From: Candidatus Galligastranaerophilus faecipullorum
GTDB lineage: Bacteria; Cyanobacteriota; Vampirovibrionia; Gastranaerophilales; Gastranaerophilaceae
DNA length: 53,047 bases
NCBI GenBank assembly: GCA_018713115.1
Contig: DVFS01000056.1
Location: 1 to 53,047, forward strand
Direction of reading: 5' to 3'
Shown here: one piece after another, positions 10,797 to 26,199 of the stretch
How positions within the stretch are numbered: the stretch's first letter is position 1
How the letters are laid out: each line of letters begins with the position of its first letter
Position numbers and translations under genes: made by a program
The notes under the pieces: generated by a model
Seen by the model: only the letters and a program-made list of their open reading frames with translations
Database searches by the model: none
What the model was told of the DNA's origin: nothing

Positions 10797-13250
10797 ATGT
10801 TTGAAAGATTTACCGAAAAGGCAATACGTGTAATAATGCTCGCTCAGGAAGAAGCGCGCAGGCTCGGACACAACTTCGTTGGCACCGAGCAGGTGCTTCT
10901 CGGACTAATCGGCGAGGGTACGGGAATTGCCGCAAAGACACTTAAATCTATGGGTGTCACCATAAAAGACGCGCGCGCTCAGGTGGAAAAAATTATCGGA
11001 CGCGGCAGCGGCTTTGTTGCGGTTGAAATTCCTTTTACCCCGAGAGCTAAAAAAGTCCTTGAACTCTCATGGGATGAGGCAAGACAGCTTGGGCACAATT
11101 ACATCGGTACGGAACACCTTTTGCTCGGATTAATCCGCGAGGGCGAGGGAGTTGCCGCAAAAGTCCTTGAAAACCTCGGTGTTGACTTGAACAAATGCAG
11201 GAGCAATGTTATAAAACTTCTGGGCGAAACAAAATCGACGTCATCGGGGGCGCAGACTGCTACCCCCGGTGCTTCTCAAAGCAAGGCAAAGACCCCAAGC
11301 CTTGATGAGTTCGGCACGGACTTGACTCTTGCCGCGCAGGAACAGCGTCTTGACCCTGTGGTAGGACGCGAAAAAGAAATAGAGCGCGTGATTCAAATTC
11401 TCGCCCGCCGTACCAAAAACAACCCTATTTTAATAGGTGAACCGGGCGTAGGTAAAACCGCAATTGCACAGGGGTTGGCACAGAAAATTGTGGACTGTGA
11501 AGTCCCCGATATTTTAGAGAATAAAAAAATAATACAGCTTGATATGGGGCTTCTCGTTGCGGGTACAAAATACCGCGGCGAGTTTGAAGAGCGCCTTAAA
11601 AAGATTATGGATGAAATCCGTCAGGCGGGAAATGTCATTCTTGTAATTGATGAAATGCATACCCTGATTGGCGCAGGTGCCGCAGAGGGTGCAATTGATG
11701 CGGCAAACATCTTAAAACCCGCACTATCAAGAGGTGAAATTCAGGTAATCGGTGCCACAACACTTGATGAGTACAGAAAACACATTGAAAAAGACTCCGC
11801 TCTTGAAAGACGTTTTCAACCCGTAATAGTTGACCAGCCTTCGGTTGACGAGACAATTGAAATTATAAGGGGCTTAAAACCAAAGTATGAAGAGCACCAC
11901 AAACTGCATATCTCGGATGAAGCAATTATCGCCGCTACCGAGCTTTCAAGCAAGTTTATAACGGAAAGATTTTTGCCGGATAAGGCGATAGATATTATCG
12001 ATGAGGCAAGTTCAAAAGTACGCCTCAATGTCTCTGCGCTTCCTCCCGAAGGACGCGAGCTTGAAAAACAGTTGAAAGCCATAATTAAAGAAAAAGAAGA
12101 TGCCATCCGCAATCAGGAATTTGAAAAGGCATCTGACTTAAGAGATGATGAGGCGAATCTTAAGGATAAAATCCGTGAAATTCAGGACAAATGGAGAAAT
12201 GCGCAGGATGAAAACAAGCCTACGGTAGGTGTGGAAGAAGTTGCGCAGGTAATTTCAACCATAACAGGTATTCCCGTTACAAAAATTACCGAAGGCGAGT
12301 CACAAAGACTTCTTAAACTCGAAGACACTCTGCATGCGCGCGTTATCGGCCAGCATGAGGCTGTGGTTTCGATTTCAAAAGCCATCCGCCGTGCGCGTGT
12401 CGGCTTAAAAAGTCCTAACCGCCCGATAGGCAGCTTTATTTTCTCGGGCCCTACCGGTGTGGGTAAAACTGAACTTGCAAAAGCACTTGCAGAAGCGGTT
12501 TTCGGTTCTGAAGATAATATGGTCAGAATCGATATGTCCGAGTTTATGGAAAAACATACGACCGCAAAACTCATCGGCTCACCTCCGGGATATGTCGGCT
12601 ATGATGACGGCGGGCATATGACTGAAATCATAAGGAAAAAACCATATTCGGTTGTGCTGTTTGACGAAATTGAAAAGGCGCACCCCGATGTGTTTAACAT
12701 AATGCTTCAAATCCTTGATGACGGCCGTTTGACTGATTCTAAGGGAAGACATGTAAGCTTTAAAAACACGATTATCATAATGACTTCAAATGTCGGCGCG
12801 CATATGATTCAAAACACTGCAAAACTCGGTTTCTCGGTTTCAAACGATGAAAAGAAAGACAAATATGAAAAACTCAAAGAAACCGTTATGGAAGAGCTTA
12901 AAAAGCAGTTCAGGCCTGAGTTTTTAAACAGAATTGACGATATTATCGTCTTTGCGCACCTTAATAAAGAAGAAATCAGGGAAATTGTAGACCTTATGCT
13001 CAATGACCTGTTTAAACGCCTTGATGAACGTCAGCTTAAAATTGAGGTAACTGACGCTGCTAAAGACTACCTTGCAAAAGAAGGCTATTCTGAAACATAC
13101 GGCGCAAGGCCGCTAAGACGCGTAATCCAGAAAAAAGTTGAAGACGTACTGGCGGAAGAAATTCTTACAGGCAATTACCAGCCCAATGACGAGCTTGTAA
13201 TGGATGTACATGACGATAAAATTGTAATTGAAAAGAAAGTAAAAGCCTAA
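10797..13250 (+). CDS. clpC: ATP-dependent Clp protease ATPase subunit ClpC
   Basis: The 817-residue Hsp100 unfoldase has a double Clp N domain (1-145), AAA domain 1 with Walker A GEPGVGKT (214-221) and Walker B VILVIDE (280-286), a middle UVR-type coiled coil (about 420-460, [11 protein letters not shown]), AAA domain 2 with GPTGVGKTE and [13 protein letters not shown], and the C-terminal D2 small domain. The LGF in [10 protein letters not shown] is the expected ClpP-docking tripeptide. Length and order match ClpC of cyanobacteria and Firmicutes rather than ClpA or ClpB. No clpP or mcsAB is adjacent. I see no CIRCE or CtsR-type site. AGGAAG upstream supports the start. Confidence 0.95.
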
Positions 13251-18888: not shown

Positions 18889-21141
18889 CTAGAAGCGTTC
18901 GTGGAAAGTTCTTGAAATAACGTCTTCCTGCTGTGCTCTTGTAAGTTTAATGAAGTTTACGGCATAACCCGATACCCTGATTGTTAACTGCGGGTATTTT
19001 TCGGGATGTTCCATAGCGTCTTTGAGCGTTTCTCTGTCCAGAACATTTACGTTAATATGCTGGCCCATATTTGTCATATAGCCGTCAAGCATACCTTTGA
19101 GGTTGCTAATTCTGTCATCTTCTGTCTTGCCCAGTGACGCGGGAATAATCGAGAAGGTATTTGAAATACCGTCTTTTGCATGCTTAAAGGGCAGTTTGGC
19201 AACAGAGCACAGTGAAGCAAGCGCGCCGCATTCATCTCTGCCATGCAGCGGGTTTGCACCCGGCGCAAAAGGCACGTTTGATTTTCTTCCGTCAGGTGTG
19301 TTGCCGGTCTTTTTGCCGTATACGACGTTTGATGTGATTGTGAGAATCGACTGTGTAGGGATTGCGTTTCTGTATGTCGGAAGTTTTTCGATTTTACTCA
19401 TAAACCTTTCAACAAGGTTTGTTGCAATAGAGTCTACTCTGTCGTCATTGTTTCCGAATTTAGGGAAGTCGCCTTCTATTTCAAAGTCAACGGCTATGCC
19501 CTGCTCGTTTCTTATCGGTTTAACTTTTGCATATTTAATAGCCGAAAGCGAATCGACAGTTACGGAGAAGCCTGCAATACCGCAGCCCAGCTTTCTTACG
19601 ACATCTCTTTCCATGAGCGCAAGCTGTGCTTTTTCATAGTAGTATTTATCGTGCATAAAGTGAATGATGTTCAGCGCGTTGACATATGTTTTTGCAAGCC
19701 AATCCATCATAGAGTCGAACTTTTTAATCACTTCATCATAATTCAAATACTCTGATGTAACAGGTTCAAAACCTTGTGCAACGGTTGCAAAGGATTTTTC
19801 ATCCACGCCGCCGTTAATGGCATAAAGAAGTGCTTTTGCAAGGTTTGCACGTGCGCCGAAGAACTGCATTTCTTTACCGATAATCATAGGCGAAACACAG
19901 CATGCAATACCATAGTCGTCGCCGAACATCGGGCGCATAAGATCATCGTTCTCGTATTGAATGGATGAAGTGTTGATTGAAAGTTTTGAGCAGAATTTTT
20001 TGAAGTTATCAGGCAGATTTACCGACCAGAGAACAGTCATATTCGGCTCGGGTGCGGGACCCAGGTTTGTAAGAGTATGCAGCATACGGTAGCAGTTTTT
20101 GGTAACAAGCGTTCTGCCGTCATCACCCATACCTCCGATAGATTCCGTTACCCAGACAGGGTCGCCGCTGAAAAGTTCATTGTATTCAGGTGTTCTTAAA
20201 AAGCGAACCATTCTGAGTTTGATTACAAAATCATCCATAATTTCCTGTGCTTCGGATTCACTTAGAGTACCGTTTTTAATATCTCTTTGCGAGTATATGT
20301 CAAGGAATGTGGAAACTCTGCCAAGTGACATGGCCGCGCCGTTCTGGTCTTTAATTGCGGCAAGGTAGCCAAAGTATGTCCACTGTACGGCTTCACGGAA
20401 GTTGTTTGCAGGTTTTGAAATATCATAGCCATAGCTTTGCGCCATTCTTTTCATGGCTTCGAGCGCCAGAATTTGTTCCGAAAGTTCTTCTCTTTCGCGG
20501 ATAATATCGGCAGTCATATTTAAACTGTCAGAAGAAGCTTTTTCCGCAAGTTTTTCCTCTATAAGTCTGTCGATACCGTAGAGTGCTACTCTTCTGTAGT
20601 CGCCTATGATTCTTCCTCTGCCGTAAGCGTCGGGAAGCCCTGTTATAATACCGCTTTTTCTGCATGCGCGGATTTCGGGAGTGTATGCTTGAAATACCCC
20701 TTCGTTGTGTGTTTTTCTGTATTTAGTGAATATTTCTTTTACTTTTTCATCTTCCTGTAGTCCGTAAGCCTTGCATGAAGCTTCAACCATTCTGTGTCCG
20801 CCGTAGGGCATAATGGCTCTTTTTAGGGGCGCATCTGTCTGCAGTCCGACAATAAGTTCAAGGTCTTTGTTGATATAGCCTGCTTTGTAGGCGTCAATTG
20901 CAGAGGGGGTGGAGACATCGGCATCTAAAAGACCGTTGTTCTCATGCTCTCTTCTCATTAGTTCGCTCACTCTTTTCCAAACCTCAAGAGTTCTCTGTGT
21001 AGGACCTTCAAGAAAAGAGTCATCACCTTCGTAAGGCGTATAGTTTCTGCGTATGAAATCAACAACATCAATTGTTTCATTCCACGCTCCGCTGTTAAAT
21101 CCCTGCCAGCATGACAGAGTTTTATCAAGAGTACATTCCAT
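18889..21141 (-). CDS. pflB: Formate C-acetyltransferase (pyruvate formate-lyase)
   Basis: The 750-residue glycyl-radical enzyme converts pyruvate and CoA to acetyl-CoA and formate. The catalytic cysteine pair C414-C415 lies in GIACCVSPM, and the radical glycine is G725 in [12 protein letters not shown] near the C-terminus. Length and motifs match true PflB rather than diol dehydratase-type relatives. AGGAG precedes the ATG. A consensus TTGACA-N17-TATAAT promoter drives it, with a GTTAG-N6-CTAAC operator at the predicted start of transcription and a second perfect dyad next to it. The activase gene lies beyond the opposite-strand phosphoesterase gene. Confidence 0.96.
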
Positions 21142-21189
21142 GATTTTCTCCTTTTAATAATGTATGTTGTTAATCGGCACTGTCATATG

Positions 21190-21257
21190 AACGCACAAAC
21201 ATGTGCGTTAGGTGAAGCTAACAATAAGATTATATTTTAATATTTTATGCTTGTCAA
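21190..21257 (-). promoter_or_regulatory. pflB promoter and leader dyad
   Basis: On the minus strand TTGACA (21257-21252), 17 nt, TATAAT (21234-21229) is a perfect consensus promoter. Transcription should start near 21222. The leader begins with the operator at 21222-21207, then the perfect dyad AACGCACA (21190-21197) / TGTGCGTT (21202-21209), which may be a second operator or an RNA hairpin. Confidence 0.75.
21207..21222. promoter_or_regulatory. GTTAG-N6-CTAAC operator at pflB
   Basis: GTTAGGTGAAGCTAAC has the same 5-6-5 inverted-repeat form as the two sites in front of the DtxR-family regulator's operon (29419-29454). It overlaps the predicted pflB transcription start, a repressor position. 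Confidence 0.6.
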
Positions 21258-21283
21258 ACTGCCAAAACCCTTGATTTTCCGCG

Positions 21284-21303
21284 TTGTGAACTTTTGTTAA
21301 CAT
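21284..21303. promoter_or_regulatory. Rex-like imperfect dyad in the pflB-nrdD intergenic region
   Basis: TTGTGAA (21284-21290), six bases, TTAACAT (21297-21303) resembles the redox regulator Rex consensus TTGTGAA-N6-TTCACAA, with two mismatches in the right arm. It lies between two anaerobic enzymes' genes. No rex gene is in the window. Confidence 0.3.
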
Positions 21304-21384
21304 GCCCGATTTTAAAATATACTTCATTGACCGTATTTTTTAAAAATCTGTTCGACCATGCTAAAATTTTGTATTAAACTAGAC

Positions 21385-21490
21385 ATGTTCAATTGAGGAA
21401 AGCAAGGGTGTAAGTCCCTCACTGGTCCGCAGCCGTTACAGTCGGAATACTTGATTAAACACGATATTACGAGACTAATGAGGGGATTTA
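21385..21490 (+). promoter_or_regulatory. Compact cobalamin-type riboswitch in the nrdD leader
   Basis: The core at 21407-21446 matches the cobalamin riboswitch consensus GGTG.AA.TCC....C.G.CC.GC..C.GT.A....GGA. Pairings: AATTGAG (21391-21397) with CTTGATT (21450-21456); AGGG (21405-21408) with CCCT (21416-21419) around TGTAAGT; ACTG (21421-21424) with CAGT (21439-21442); CCG (21433-21435) with CGG (21443-21445). GGAAAG after the first strand matches the class II core. A 3' hairpin ATTA-CGAGAC-TAAT (21466-21479) sits directly before the Shine-Dalgarno GAGGGG and could be the kissing-loop/expression element. Large peripheral arms of class I are absent. The rest of the 353-bp gap holds the pflB promoter and no gene. 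Confidence 0.78.
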
Positions 21491-21494
21491 CATT

Positions 21495-23753
21495 ATGCAA
21501 AACGCACTTAACAATGACGAAAAAGTCGTCGAACTCAATTCGCATTTGGTAACCGACGCCATCAAAAAAGCAAGAGAAGCAAATATCGGGTTTGCAAATC
21601 AAATCGTGGATGCTTCGCGAGCTATTCTTGAGAATGTTTCAATCGTTAAAAAAGACGGAACAAAAGAAAAGTATAACGTGCAAAAAGTAGTAAACGCCGT
21701 AAAAAAATCCGCGGCAAGAATGCTTATTGAATTTTCCGAAGATGAAACAGATAAAATTTGTGATTTCGTTAACAAAAATGTGGTACAGATGAAAAAAAAC
21801 GAAATCGGAATTTTAGAGATACACAACATTGTAGAGAGCGTGCTTGAAGAAATTAATCCCAGGGTTGCACAGAGTTATCGCAACTACAGAAACTATAAAA
21901 CAGATTTTGTTCATATGCTGGATAAAGTTTTTCAGGAAAGCCAGAAGATTATGTACATAGGCGATAAGGAAAACTCAAACTCCGATTCCGCCCTTGTTTC
22001 CACTAAGCGTTCATTAATATTTAACCAGCTGAATAAAGAACTCTATAAGAAATTTTTCCTGACAGTAGATGACCTGCAGGCAATTCGCGAGGGCTATATC
22101 TACATCCACGATATGTCCGCGCGCAGAGATACCATGAACTGCTGTCTTTTTGATGTTGCCAATGTTTTAAAAGGCGGTTTTGAAATGGGCAATCTCTGGT
22201 ATAACGAGCCAAAAACACTTGATGTTGCATTTGATGTAATAGGCGACATCGTTATGGCTGCGGCAAGCCAGCAGTACGGCGGCTTTACGGTAGCCGAGGT
22301 TGATAAGCTTCTTGCTCCTTATGCACAGAAGTCATATGATTTACAATATGACAGATATGTTTGTATGGGGCTTGATTTTGAAAGAGCTAAAACAGAAGCC
22401 CTTAATGATGTAAAACATGATTTTGAACAGGGTTTTCAGGGCTGGGAGTATAAATTTAACACTGTGGCCTCCTCGCGCGGAGATTATCCCTTTATTACAA
22501 TGACTTTTGGTCTTGGTACCGAACAGTTTGAAAAAATGGCTTCTATGGTAATGCTTAAAACCAGAGAGGGCGGCCAGGGTAAAAAGTCTTGCAAAAAACC
22601 GGTTTTGTTTCCAAAGCTCGTATTTTTATATGACAAAAACCTTCATGGCGAGGGCTGCGAGCTTTATGATCTCTACAAGGCAGGTGTTGAGTGCTCAAAA
22701 AAAGCTATGTATCCAGACTGGCTTTCCCTTACGGGTGACGGTTATGTAGCTTCAATGTATAAAAAATATAAAAAAGTAATTTCTCCCATGGGCTGCAGGG
22801 CGTTTTTATCTCCCTGGTTCGAGCGCGGCGGGATGTATCCTGCCGATGAGAACGATACACCTGTTTTTGTCGGTCGTTTTAATGTGGGTGCTGTAAGTTT
22901 GCACCTTCCGATGATTCTTGCAAAAGCAAGAAAAGAAAGCAGGGATTTTTACGAAGTGCTTGATTATTATCTGGAGTTAATCAGAAAAATTCATATAAGA
23001 ACTTATGAGTATCTGGGCGAAATGAAAGCTTCGGTTAATCCTCTGGCGTACTGCGAGGGAGGTTTTCTCGGCGGTCATTTAAAACCGTCGGATAAAATTA
23101 AACCTCTTTTAAAGGCTGCAACGGCGTCATTTGGTATTACCGCATTAAATGAACTTCAAGAACTTTACAATGGCAAGTCGCTTGTCGAAGACGGCAAATT
23201 TGCTCTTGAAGTTATGGAATACATAAACAAAAAAGTAGTTCAATTCAAAGAAGAGGACGGTAATCTTTATGCCATTTACGGCACTCCGGCAGAAAACCTT
23301 TGCGGACTTCAGGTCCAGCAGTTCAGAAAAAAATACGGCATAGTTGATAAGGTATCTGACAGAGGCTATGTTTCAAACAGTTTTCACTGCCATGTCGCAG
23401 AAGATATTACTCCGATTGAAAAGCAGGATATTGAAAACCGTTTCTGGAATCTTTTTAACGGAGGAAAAATACAATACGTTAAATATCCGGTTTCATACAA
23501 TACTCAGGCAATTGAAACTCTTGTGCAGCGTGCAATGGATATGGGATTTTATGAAGGTGTGAATCTTTCGCTGGCATACTGTGATGACTGCGGTCACAAG
23601 GAGCTTTCTATGGATGTCTGCCCCAAGTGCGGAAGCCGAAACCTTACCAAAATAGACAGGATGAACGGCTACCTTTCGTATTCCCGCGTTAATGGCGACA
23701 CAAGGCTGAACGATGCCAAAATGGAAGAAATTAAAGACAGAGTGAGTATGTAG
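21495..23753 (+). CDS. nrdD: Anaerobic ribonucleoside-triphosphate reductase (class III)
   Basis: The 752-residue oxygen-sensitive glycyl-radical enzyme makes deoxyribonucleotides from NTPs. An ATP-cone regulatory domain lies near residues 50-140 (IVKKDGTKEKYNVQKVVNAV). The catalytic barrel contains the DMSARRDTMNCCLFD and GEGCELYDLY regions. The C-terminal zinc ribbon is CDDCGHKELS..CPKCGS and the radical glycine is G725 (RMNGYLSY). GAGGGG about 9 nt upstream supports the start. It is followed after 1 nt by its activase nrdG. A cobalamin-type riboswitch in the leader suggests repression when B12 is available for a B12-dependent class II reductase, which is not in this window. Confidence 0.95.
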   Translation: MQNALNNDEKVVELNSHLVTDAIKKAREANIGFANQIVDASRAILENVSIVKKDGTKEKYNVQKVVNAVKKSAARMLIEFSEDETDKICDFVNKNVVQMKKNEIGILEIHNIVESVLEEINPRVAQSYRNYRNYKTDFVHMLDKVFQESQKIMYIGDKENSNSDSALVSTKRSLIFNQLNKELYKKFFLTVDDLQAIREGYIYIHDMSARRDTMNCCLFDVANVLKGGFEMGNLWYNEPKTLDVAFDVIGDIVMAAASQQYGGFTVAEVDKLLAPYAQKSYDLQYDRYVCMGLDFERAKTEALNDVKHDFEQGFQGWEYKFNTVASSRGDYPFITMTFGLGTEQFEKMASMVMLKTREGGQGKKSCKKPVLFPKLVFLYDKNLHGEGCELYDLYKAGVECSKKAMYPDWLSLTGDGYVASMYKKYKKVISPMGCRAFLSPWFERGGMYPADENDTPVFVGRFNVGAVSLHLPMILAKARKESRDFYEVLDYYLELIRKIHIRTYEYLGEMKASVNPLAYCEGGFLGGHLKPSDKIKPLLKAATASFGITALNELQELYNGKSLVEDGKFALEVMEYINKKVVQFKEEDGNLYAIYGTPAENLCGLQVQQFRKKYGIVDKVSDRGYVSNSFHCHVAEDITPIEKQDIENRFWNLFNGGKIQYVKYPVSYNTQAIETLVQRAMDMGFYEGVNLSLAYCDDCGHKELSMDVCPKCGSRNLTKIDRMNGYLSYSRVNGDTRLNDAKMEEIKDRVSM

Positions 23754-23754
23754 T

Positions 23755-24243
23755 ATGAATTATCATAATATAACAACGGATGATATGCTTAACGGCGATG
23801 GTCTAAGGGTTGTTTTGTGGGTGGCCGGCTGCACTCATCACTGTGACGGCTGCCAGAATCCTATCACCTGGGATATATCGGGCGGACTGCCGTTTGACAG
23901 GGAAGCTGAAAAAGAGTTATTTGAAAAGCTTGATAAAAATTATATTTCAGGAATTACATTCAGCGGCGGCGACCCGCTGCACCCTATGAACCGCCAGGAA
24001 GTATGCAGGCTTGTTAAAAAAACACATGAACTTTTTCCGAATAAAACAATCTGGGTCTACACAGGTTTCTTATGGGAAGATGTTAAGGATATTGAAGAGA
24101 TGAAATATGTTGATGTCCTTGCTGACGGCCGGTTTGAACAAGATAAACTTGATAACAATTTAAAATGGGTCGGAAGTCCGAATCAGCGTGTTATTGATGT
24201 AAAGAGAACTATTTCGGACGGCAGAATTTTTCTTCATGTCTAA
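23755..24243 (+). CDS. nrdG: Anaerobic ribonucleotide reductase activating protein
   Basis: The 162-residue radical SAM activase generates the NrdD glycyl radical. Cluster cysteines are C26, C30 and C33 (AGCTHHCDGCQNP), followed by TFSGGDPLHP for SAM binding and the short minimal barrel typical of NrdG. It begins 1 nt after the nrdD stop, so the two form one operon under the same riboswitch leader. No terminator is obvious in the 117 bp downstream. Confidence 0.94.
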   Translation: MNYHNITTDDMLNGDGLRVVLWVAGCTHHCDGCQNPITWDISGGLPFDREAEKELFEKLDKNYISGITFSGGDPLHPMNRQEVCRLVKKTHELFPNKTIWVYTGFLWEDVKDIEEMKYVDVLADGRFEQDKLDNNLKWVGSPNQRVIDVKRTISDGRIFLHV

Positions 24244-24360: not shown

Positions 24361-26199
24361 ATGGGAACAAATGTCAATTTAGTGGATGTATTGAAAAAAA
24401 TTGCATCTGATGCCGGATTTATAAGTTCGGCAGGCTCTAAGTTCGGCGCAGGCGAGACGCTTGAACTGCTCTTCATTTCAGGCGGTTCGGACAAAGCCGA
24501 TACTCTGGTTTTAAAGGATACAAGCGGAGACAATTATTCAATTTCAGCACAAAGCCTGCAGGGGTATTTATCTGATGATGAGTTTAATGCCCTTATGGCG
24601 GGAGGTGAAAATAAAGTCACGGAAGTTCCGCAGGATATTTCCGCTACCGAAATTACCCTCGGCACAACAAGCGGGGTGGAAGCTAACACACAGGTAGAAG
24701 AAACGGCATCTGTAGGGTCTTCCGAACAAATTGAAAAAGAAATAGAAGCGCTTGAAAGGCAAAAAGCTGCTAATAACGAGGTTATGACTTCGCTAAAAGA
24801 GCAGATTGAAGTGCTGCGAGAAAAAGTTGAACAATCCATAAAAGAAGCCCTTGAAGCTATGGAAGAGGCAACAGATGAGCAGCAAAAACAAGCTGACAGG
24901 ATTGTACAAAAACAACTGGAAGATTTTCAGGACAGAAAAGCTGACGGCGAAAATGTAACACCTGAGGATCTTGCTGCGTCAGTGAAATCCGCAATATCTG
25001 CGGAAGGAATGCCTGAAGGATTCTCAACTGCTGTGTCGCAGCTTCTGTTTGCCGATACCAATGTTGCCCTTATGAATAGTCTTCTTGATCAGTTGAGCAC
25101 CAAAGTTCAGATTGGAAAAGACCTTGATAAACAGCTTGATACGCAAAATGAAGCTCTGGAAGCTGCAAAACAAGCCGAAGAAGCTGCAAAATCCTGCGAC
25201 CCTATCGGATTCCAGATGGGCGGAATTGATACCGACGGCGACGGTAAAGCGGGTAATGCTCAGTTCGACTTTTTCTACGACCATGACGATGACGGCAAAA
25301 TTAACTCACTTGATGACTTTGTCGGCGCAAAGGCAGATAAGGCGGGTGAAGACGGATGGAATGAAATTGAAAACCTTGACGGCGCCGGCGGTGCAAAAGA
25401 CGGGCAGATTACGGCAGATGAACTGACAAATGCCGGCATTAAAGTTATGGTAACCGATGAAAACGGCAAACAGTCCGCTATGGACATAAGCGAGTTTGAA
25501 GAAAAATTCGGCAAAATCGAAATCAACTCTCAAGATACAGAAGCGGGTGAGAATGGTTTTGTCGATAATGTCGGCCCTAAAAACTTTGATTCCGACGCAG
25601 GCAACAAGCTCCTGAGCTCTTTTAGTCTTAAGGTAGGCGGACAGGATTTAAACGGTTATCAGACAAGCGATACACAAGACTGGCTGGTTGAAAACTTTGC
25701 AAGCGTAATGGATATTGACAGTCTTAAAGAAGAGGGTGTTGATGTTTCCTCTATTGAAAATCTTCAGTCAGGAGAGCAAACAGATTTTGATAAATTCATA
25801 GAAGAATACAGAAACACCGTTATACCTCAACTTGAACAGGAAATTAAAGACGCATACGCCCAGCTTGGTTTCTCTGAGGATCTTGTGAATTCCATAAAAG
25901 AACTTGCCCAAGCTACGGCTGAAGTTGAAAGTTCAAGAATTGAAAACGAAATCGAAGCCAAGCAGGAAGAAGCAGCGCAAGAAGGCAAAGACTCGGATGA
26001 AGCTGCTGCCCAAATTAAAGAAGACGGAACAGATGTCGTAAATGAAGGCGAAATCGAAACAGTAAGCGACTCTGCAATACCGGAGGAAACGGTTGCTGTC
26101 GCAGACAGAGCAGTTGATACCGTAAGTGCTGCCGCAGATGCAGCAAATGCAGCAGGCATAGTTGATGACATTCTGCTTCCGGAAGAAGATACTATATAA
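24361..26199 (+). CDS. Large acidic coiled-coil protein with EF-hand-like calcium motifs
   Basis: The 612-residue protein is unrecognised. A short globular N-terminus (1-90) is followed by a coiled coil (about 118-195 and 245-275). EF-hand/dockerin-like loops follow: DTDGDGKAGNAQFDFF (about 291-306), DHDDDGKINSLDDF (about 308-321) and a degenerate DGAGGAKDGQITADEL (about 341-356). An acidic helical C-terminus ends in Ala/Val/Asp-rich sequence. There is no signal peptide or membrane helix. The loops carry D-x-D-x-D-G ligands, so calcium binding is plausible. AAAGG about 9 nt upstream supports the start. Composition, size and upstream elements match the gene at 8235, though sequence similarity is not obvious. 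Confidence 0.7.
   Translation: MGTNVNLVDVLKKIASDAGFISSAGSKFGAGETLELLFISGGSDKADTLVLKDTSGDNYSISAQSLQGYLSDDEFNALMAGGENKVTEVPQDISATEITLGTTSGVEANTQVEETASVGSSEQIEKEIEALERQKAANNEVMTSLKEQIEVLREKVEQSIKEALEAMEEATDEQQKQADRIVQKQLEDFQDRKADGENVTPEDLAASVKSAISAEGMPEGFSTAVSQLLFADTNVALMNSLLDQLSTKVQIGKDLDKQLDTQNEALEAAKQAEEAAKSCDPIGFQMGGIDTDGDGKAGNAQFDFFYDHDDDGKINSLDDFVGAKADKAGEDGWNEIENLDGAGGAKDGQITADELTNAGIKVMVTDENGKQSAMDISEFEEKFGKIEINSQDTEAGENGFVDNVGPKNFDSDAGNKLLSSFSLKVGGQDLNGYQTSDTQDWLVENFASVMDIDSLKEEGVDVSSIENLQSGEQTDFDKFIEEYRNTVIPQLEQEIKDAYAQLGFSEDLVNSIKELAQATAEVESSRIENEIEAKQEEAAQEGKDSDEAAAQIKEDGTDVVNEGEIETVSDSAIPEETVAVADRAVDTVSAAADAANAAGIVDDILLPEEDTI

Follow-up and report, generated by a model that had tools for sequence, protein, structure and literature searches.

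The leader of the anaerobic ribonucleotide reductase gene nrdD in Candidatus Galligastranaerophilus faecipullorum is very probably a cobalamin riboswitch of the compact class II type (AdoCbl-II), which would act on translation and be OFF with cobalamin. In the window, that is, the whole analysed stretch of 53,047 nucleotides, the leader occupies positions 21385-21495, and its bases are as the sequence-only reading had described them. It is followed on the plus strand by nrdD (21495-23753; class III reductase with an ATP cone; TIGR02487 573 bits, PF13597 and PF03477) and by nrdG, the gene of the NrdD activase (23755-24243; TIGR02491 189 bits), and both proteins exceed the curated NCBIfam cut-offs. 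The three closest named NrdD relatives come from Candidatus Gastranaerophilales MAGs, with 89-92% identity. A possible promoter for the leader, TTTAAA-17-TAAAAT with a TG preceding its second hexamer, lies at 21339-21367 of the plus strand and is weak (9 of 12 in the consensus scan); many homologous leaders, read by eye, possess TTGACA/TATAAT-like boxes at a similar distance. Upstream, on the minus strand, a divergent pyruvate formate-lyase gene was found (18889-21141, 1217 bits), which is faced by a perfect sigma-70 consensus TTGACA-17-TATAAT at 21229-21257 of the same strand. After nrdG there is a 612-residue open frame (24361-26199) with DxDxDG-like stretches that by eye resemble EF-hand or dockerin calcium sites.

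The cobalamin riboswitch core proposed earlier for this leader was recovered in an E-value search of 261 bases as a match to RF01689 (AdoCbl-II) at 21385-21458 of the plus strand, with 27.9 bits and E 1.1e-4 (1.7e-4 when the whole genome of the organism was searched), which spans the full model, positions 1-81 of 81. The gathering score of RF01689 is 36.5 bits, and the Rfam gathering-threshold scan of the window returned no match to any family, RF01482 included. The outcome of the covariance-model check is therefore divided: membership by gathering score was not found, while a significant full-length structural match stands beneath it, with two lower-scoring matches from the same clan below that. 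A class I cobalamin riboswitch (RF00174), which matches weakly at the same position, was rejected at 17.1 bits, under its gathering score of 31.5. The short class II-like layout suggested from the sequence holds; we take this Rfam label to correspond to class II. Like RF01689, the window element consists of a P3-P6 core and lacks the peripheral arms of class I; it differs in staying under the gathering score, and nine relatives' nrdD leaders differ in bearing an arm at P6. The orthologous nrdD leader of another genome of the same genus (G095, locus L038), about 507 bases before its NrdD match, scores 38.9 bits, above the gathering score. Across the family, a search at E 0.1 detected AdoCbl-II elements in 177 of 192 genomes; 146 genomes have one over the cut-off, and the scores reach 54.4 bits.

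The predicted helices of the window element are P3 (21388-21397 with 21450-21459, with one mismatch, C21390 with A21457), P4 (21405-21408 with 21416-21419), P5 (21422-21424 with 21430-21432) and P6 (21433-21435 with 21443-21445). P5 encloses the loop L5, GTCCG (21425-21429). Downstream, the hairpin P13, ATTA-CGAGAC-TAAT (21466-21479), adjoins the Shine-Dalgarno sequence GAGGGG (21480-21485), just as had been read from the sequence, and its loop L13 (21470-21475) can pair with L5. The kissing loop had been called imperfect; the pairing itself stands, and it consists in fact of five pairs, G21425-C21475, U21426-A21474, C21427-G21473, C21428-G21471 and G21429-C21470, with a single bulged base, A21472.

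NrdD is present in 143 of the 192 family genomes, and we read 150 NrdD loci (149 listed matches and the window) in 133 genomes, weaker NrdD matches being outside this set. The riboswitch core, allowing at most one mismatch to the pattern, lies just upstream in 74 of the 150 loci. A looser pattern gave 68 matches, two of them false (L052 and L053), and the stricter one gave the 74. All 74 leaders possess an L13-type hairpin loop downstream of the core, as judged with a loop pattern that was composed after inspection of the sequences, and in 69 of them the first ATG follows this loop by 10-19 bases (it is farther away in L098, L105, L106, L110 and L133). Within the genus of the window, all seven nrdD leaders read, the window included, have kept the core together with L5 and a loop of the L13 type. 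No cobalamin riboswitch was found by Rfam E-value in the 20 of the 76 switchless loci that were searched again (the nine from genomes with an NrdJ match and eleven others), and the remaining 56 were judged on the sequence pattern alone. Some leaders are enlarged: nine (L106, L110, L117, L137, L138, L141, L144, L159 and L171) are extended at P6 by an extra arm of about 40-60 bases, L155 has an inserted arm in P4, and the L5 and L13 loops persist in all ten.

Covariation in homologous nrdD leaders, expected from the sequence-only reading, was examined in an alignment of 58 distinct leaders, which remained from the 74 after exclusion of 12 (the nine extended at P6, two whose P4 is odd and one truncated by the end of its contig) and of four duplicates. 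The structure tested, P3, P4, P5 and P6 with two of the kissing pairs, is paired in 85.5% of the cells. Its covariation score of 0.228 exceeds the mean of 0.103 for shuffled alignments and was reached by none of 500 shuffles, while the structure slid along the alignment scored 0.042-0.114; the shuffles ignore relatedness, the slides do not. Twelve pairs show two-sided change, a number which 6 of the 500 shuffles reach. Eight of the ten P3 pairs (73.8% of cells paired) and three of the four P4 pairs (88.8%) belong here, and these 11 pairs provide covariation support for both helices. P5, with 96% of cells paired, and P6 are nearly invariant and so carry no covariation information. Because of the E-value and of the conservation with covariation in nearly half of the NrdD leaders read, a chance match is unlikely.

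The two kissing pairs that can be tested in the alignment are paired in every one of the 58 leaders, and all five L5-L13 pairs are intact in 73 of the 74, with changes on both sides. GUCCG occurs with CGAGAC (38 leaders), CGCGAC (7), CGUGAC (3) and CGGCAC (1), GACCG with CGGAAAUC (17) or CGGUAAUC (5), GGCCG with CGGAAAUC (1, forming a G-U pair) and GUUCG with CGAAAC (1). In the CGNGAC loops the predicted bulge base is the one that varies (A, C or T). The single leader that breaks a kissing pair combines GACCG with CGGAAAAC. The GACCG group may be a single clade, and the two-sided change at the second kissing pair may reflect few evolutionary events.

A B12-dependent reductase, NrdJ, had been predicted elsewhere in the genome, and it was indeed matched there with 735 bits. 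The same genome has two CobA/BtuR-type matches and one B12-binding domain match, and searches of it gave no match to a PF01923-type adenosyltransferase or to a class I small subunit; the latter was matched in only 2 of the 192 family genomes and in none of the other 190. Of the 71 genomes whose nrdD has the switch, 65 gave an NrdJ match, against 9 of the 62 whose nrdD was found without it (Fisher p 1e-20, kinship ignored). Counted by genus majorities, 20 genera have NrdJ with the switch, 3 the switch alone, 3 NrdJ without the switch and 9 neither (p 5e-4). The exceptions are six genomes with a switched nrdD and no NrdJ match, and nine with an NrdJ match in which nrdD was found without the switch. 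One of these nine, G009, has an NrdJ match below the cut-off (157 against 400 bits) on the same contig as a class I small-subunit match, so that its NrdJ-like match probably belongs to class I; it was kept in the count. Outside the NrdD-locus set NrdJ was matched in 54 of 59 genomes, ten of these 59 having an NrdD match nonetheless. Among the 62 switchless genomes 53 lack an NrdJ match. A class I small subunit was matched in one of these, G130, which leaves 52 in which the searches found no reductase besides NrdD and in which shutting off nrdD by B12 would be harmful.

NrdJ is an adenosylcobalamin enzyme, and the switch follows it through the family. Together with the fact that the best Rfam match is to the AdoCbl-II family, this makes it unlikely that the aptamer, though real, binds a different ligand, namely hydroxo- or methylcobalamin or another cobamide. 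This explanation overlaps with the preferred one in everything except the ligand, and riboswitches preferring aquo- or methylcobalamin do exist, for example env8 (PMC7689651).

How the element would control nrdD can be approached from its 3' side. In 66 of the 74 leaders the 3' strand of P13 shares bases with an SD-like string. For the window this overlap is limited to a single G-U pair, T21465 with G21480, beyond which the Shine-Dalgarno sequence adjoins the stem. Most leaders of the genus are alike in this: in 6 of the 7, P13 and the Shine-Dalgarno sequence are adjacent or have one base in common. No terminator-like site was found in 21150-21600, and a transcription-terminator platform was rejected on this ground. 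The overlap in relatives and the lack of a terminator-like site favour translational control. For ligand binding, ligand form and direction of control we infer the following scheme. Cobalamin, most likely adenosylcobalamin, would bind the P3-P6 core, whereupon L5 (GUCCG) would kiss L13 (CGAGAC) and hold the P13 hairpin in place next to the Shine-Dalgarno sequence or on top of it, so that NrdD synthesis, and that of NrdG if translation is coupled, would be blocked. Cells with B12 would rely on the B12-dependent NrdJ, and without B12 the ribosome binding site would open and NrdDG would be made.

The opposite direction of control was also considered, because the minimum free energy fold of the window leader is not the aptamer. 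In this fold (-28.5 kcal/mol, z -2.0) the P4 strand (GGUGUAAGUCCCUCA) pairs with the Shine-Dalgarno sequence and spacer (UGAGGGGAUUUACAUU), which would make the element an ON switch if the pairing were the ligand-free state and the ligand freed the Shine-Dalgarno sequence. The fold lies 17 kcal/mol under the aptamer-constrained one (-11.5 kcal/mol), a constraint that ignores the ligand and the kissing loop; the mean gap over 62 leaders, under constraints slightly lighter than those of the window, is 4.6 kcal/mol. The window's own two halves pair at -18.8 kcal/mol, a rank of 0.06, which places them in the top 6% when the partner of the Shine-Dalgarno side is swapped, and at least four of the 12 post-loop bases are paired into the core in 34 of the 62 leaders folded. 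However, over these 62 leaders own halves pair no more strongly than swapped ones (mean rank 0.53, -9.1 against -8.9 kcal/mol), which shows no visible selection for the pairing, and a conserved P4-SD ligand-free state was rejected for that reason. The conserved features are instead the kissing loop and the P13-SD overlap, and an ON switch would have the B12-free enzyme made while B12 is present. We therefore regard this direction as very improbable and consider that the pairing simply arises when a CCC strand meets a G-rich Shine-Dalgarno sequence, or that it is peculiar to the window. A bolder composite, in which one small RNA picks between two oxygen-independent reductases across the family, is kept with NrdJ and is missing where NrdD is the sole reductase found, and in which the P4 strand of the window additionally acts as an anti-Shine-Dalgarno in a bistable RNA, seems quite unlikely as a whole. 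That the window holds a decayed, non-functional copy, as the score of 27.9 bits under the cut-off and the P3 mismatch might suggest, is scarcely credible given its intact kissing pairs and the preservation of core, L5 and L13 loop throughout the leaders read in its genus.

The OFF switch on nrdD fits into a known regulatory pattern. Control of NrdD had been presented in the sequence-only reading as an extension of the logic by which B12 shuts off B12-independent isozymes; this is not new, as B12 control of nrdDG was published in 2004 and 2013. Desulfovibrio vulgaris and Desulfuromonas were reported to have B12 elements ahead of nrdDG and to encode NrdJ elsewhere (2004, PMC545781), a cobalamin riboswitch precedes nrdDG in Propionibacterium acnes (2013, PMC3848588), and another precedes nrdD in an Antarctic Chlorobium (2021, PMC8620254). 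In the first two of these reports the targets and the NrdJ/NrdDG logic are the same as here, but the lineages are different and the passages name no structural class. In P. acnes, moreover, the authors see transcripts of nrdAB that end before the first gene (PMC3848588), in contrast to the lack of a terminator-like site here. The Escherichia coli btuB riboswitch likewise has a kissing loop and blocks the binding of ribosomes in a B12-dependent manner, as is proposed for the nrdD element, but its aptamer has about 200 bases and its target is a transporter (PMC7689651). Titles and abstracts retrieved for the lineage with riboswitch or cobalamin terms contain no report of an nrdD switch in Gastranaerophilales. 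What is new here is the compact class II-type element, the lineage, the family-wide association with NrdJ and the kissing-loop variants, the target and the logic being already published.

AdoCbl-II elements of the family are also found before other genes. The second one in the genome of the window (L003, contig C23, minus strand, 11719-11784, 35.5 bits) precedes an open frame with the motif CPHG-x5-CP[IV]C, and so do 26 of the 30 best-scoring elements of the family (L006-L035), the other four preceding NrdD-like frames. The CPHG-x5-CP[IV]C frames are mostly of about 215-275 residues, and the protein from the genome of the window has no Pfam match over the cut-off. The protein is possibly controlled by B12, and it is perhaps a more novel lead than the nrdD switch.

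The kissing loop occurs in natural versions that compensate one another (GUCCG/CGAGAC, GACCG/CGGAAAUC and GUUCG/CGAAAC), and these offer a means of probing cobalamin riboswitches of the class II type. That the nrdD switch follows NrdJ within one family allows a comparison between relatives to test the principle by which an enzyme independent of a cofactor is shut off by that cofactor. For these gut relatives of the cyanobacteria, this suggests that the supply of B12 in the gut sets which ribonucleotide reductase they use.
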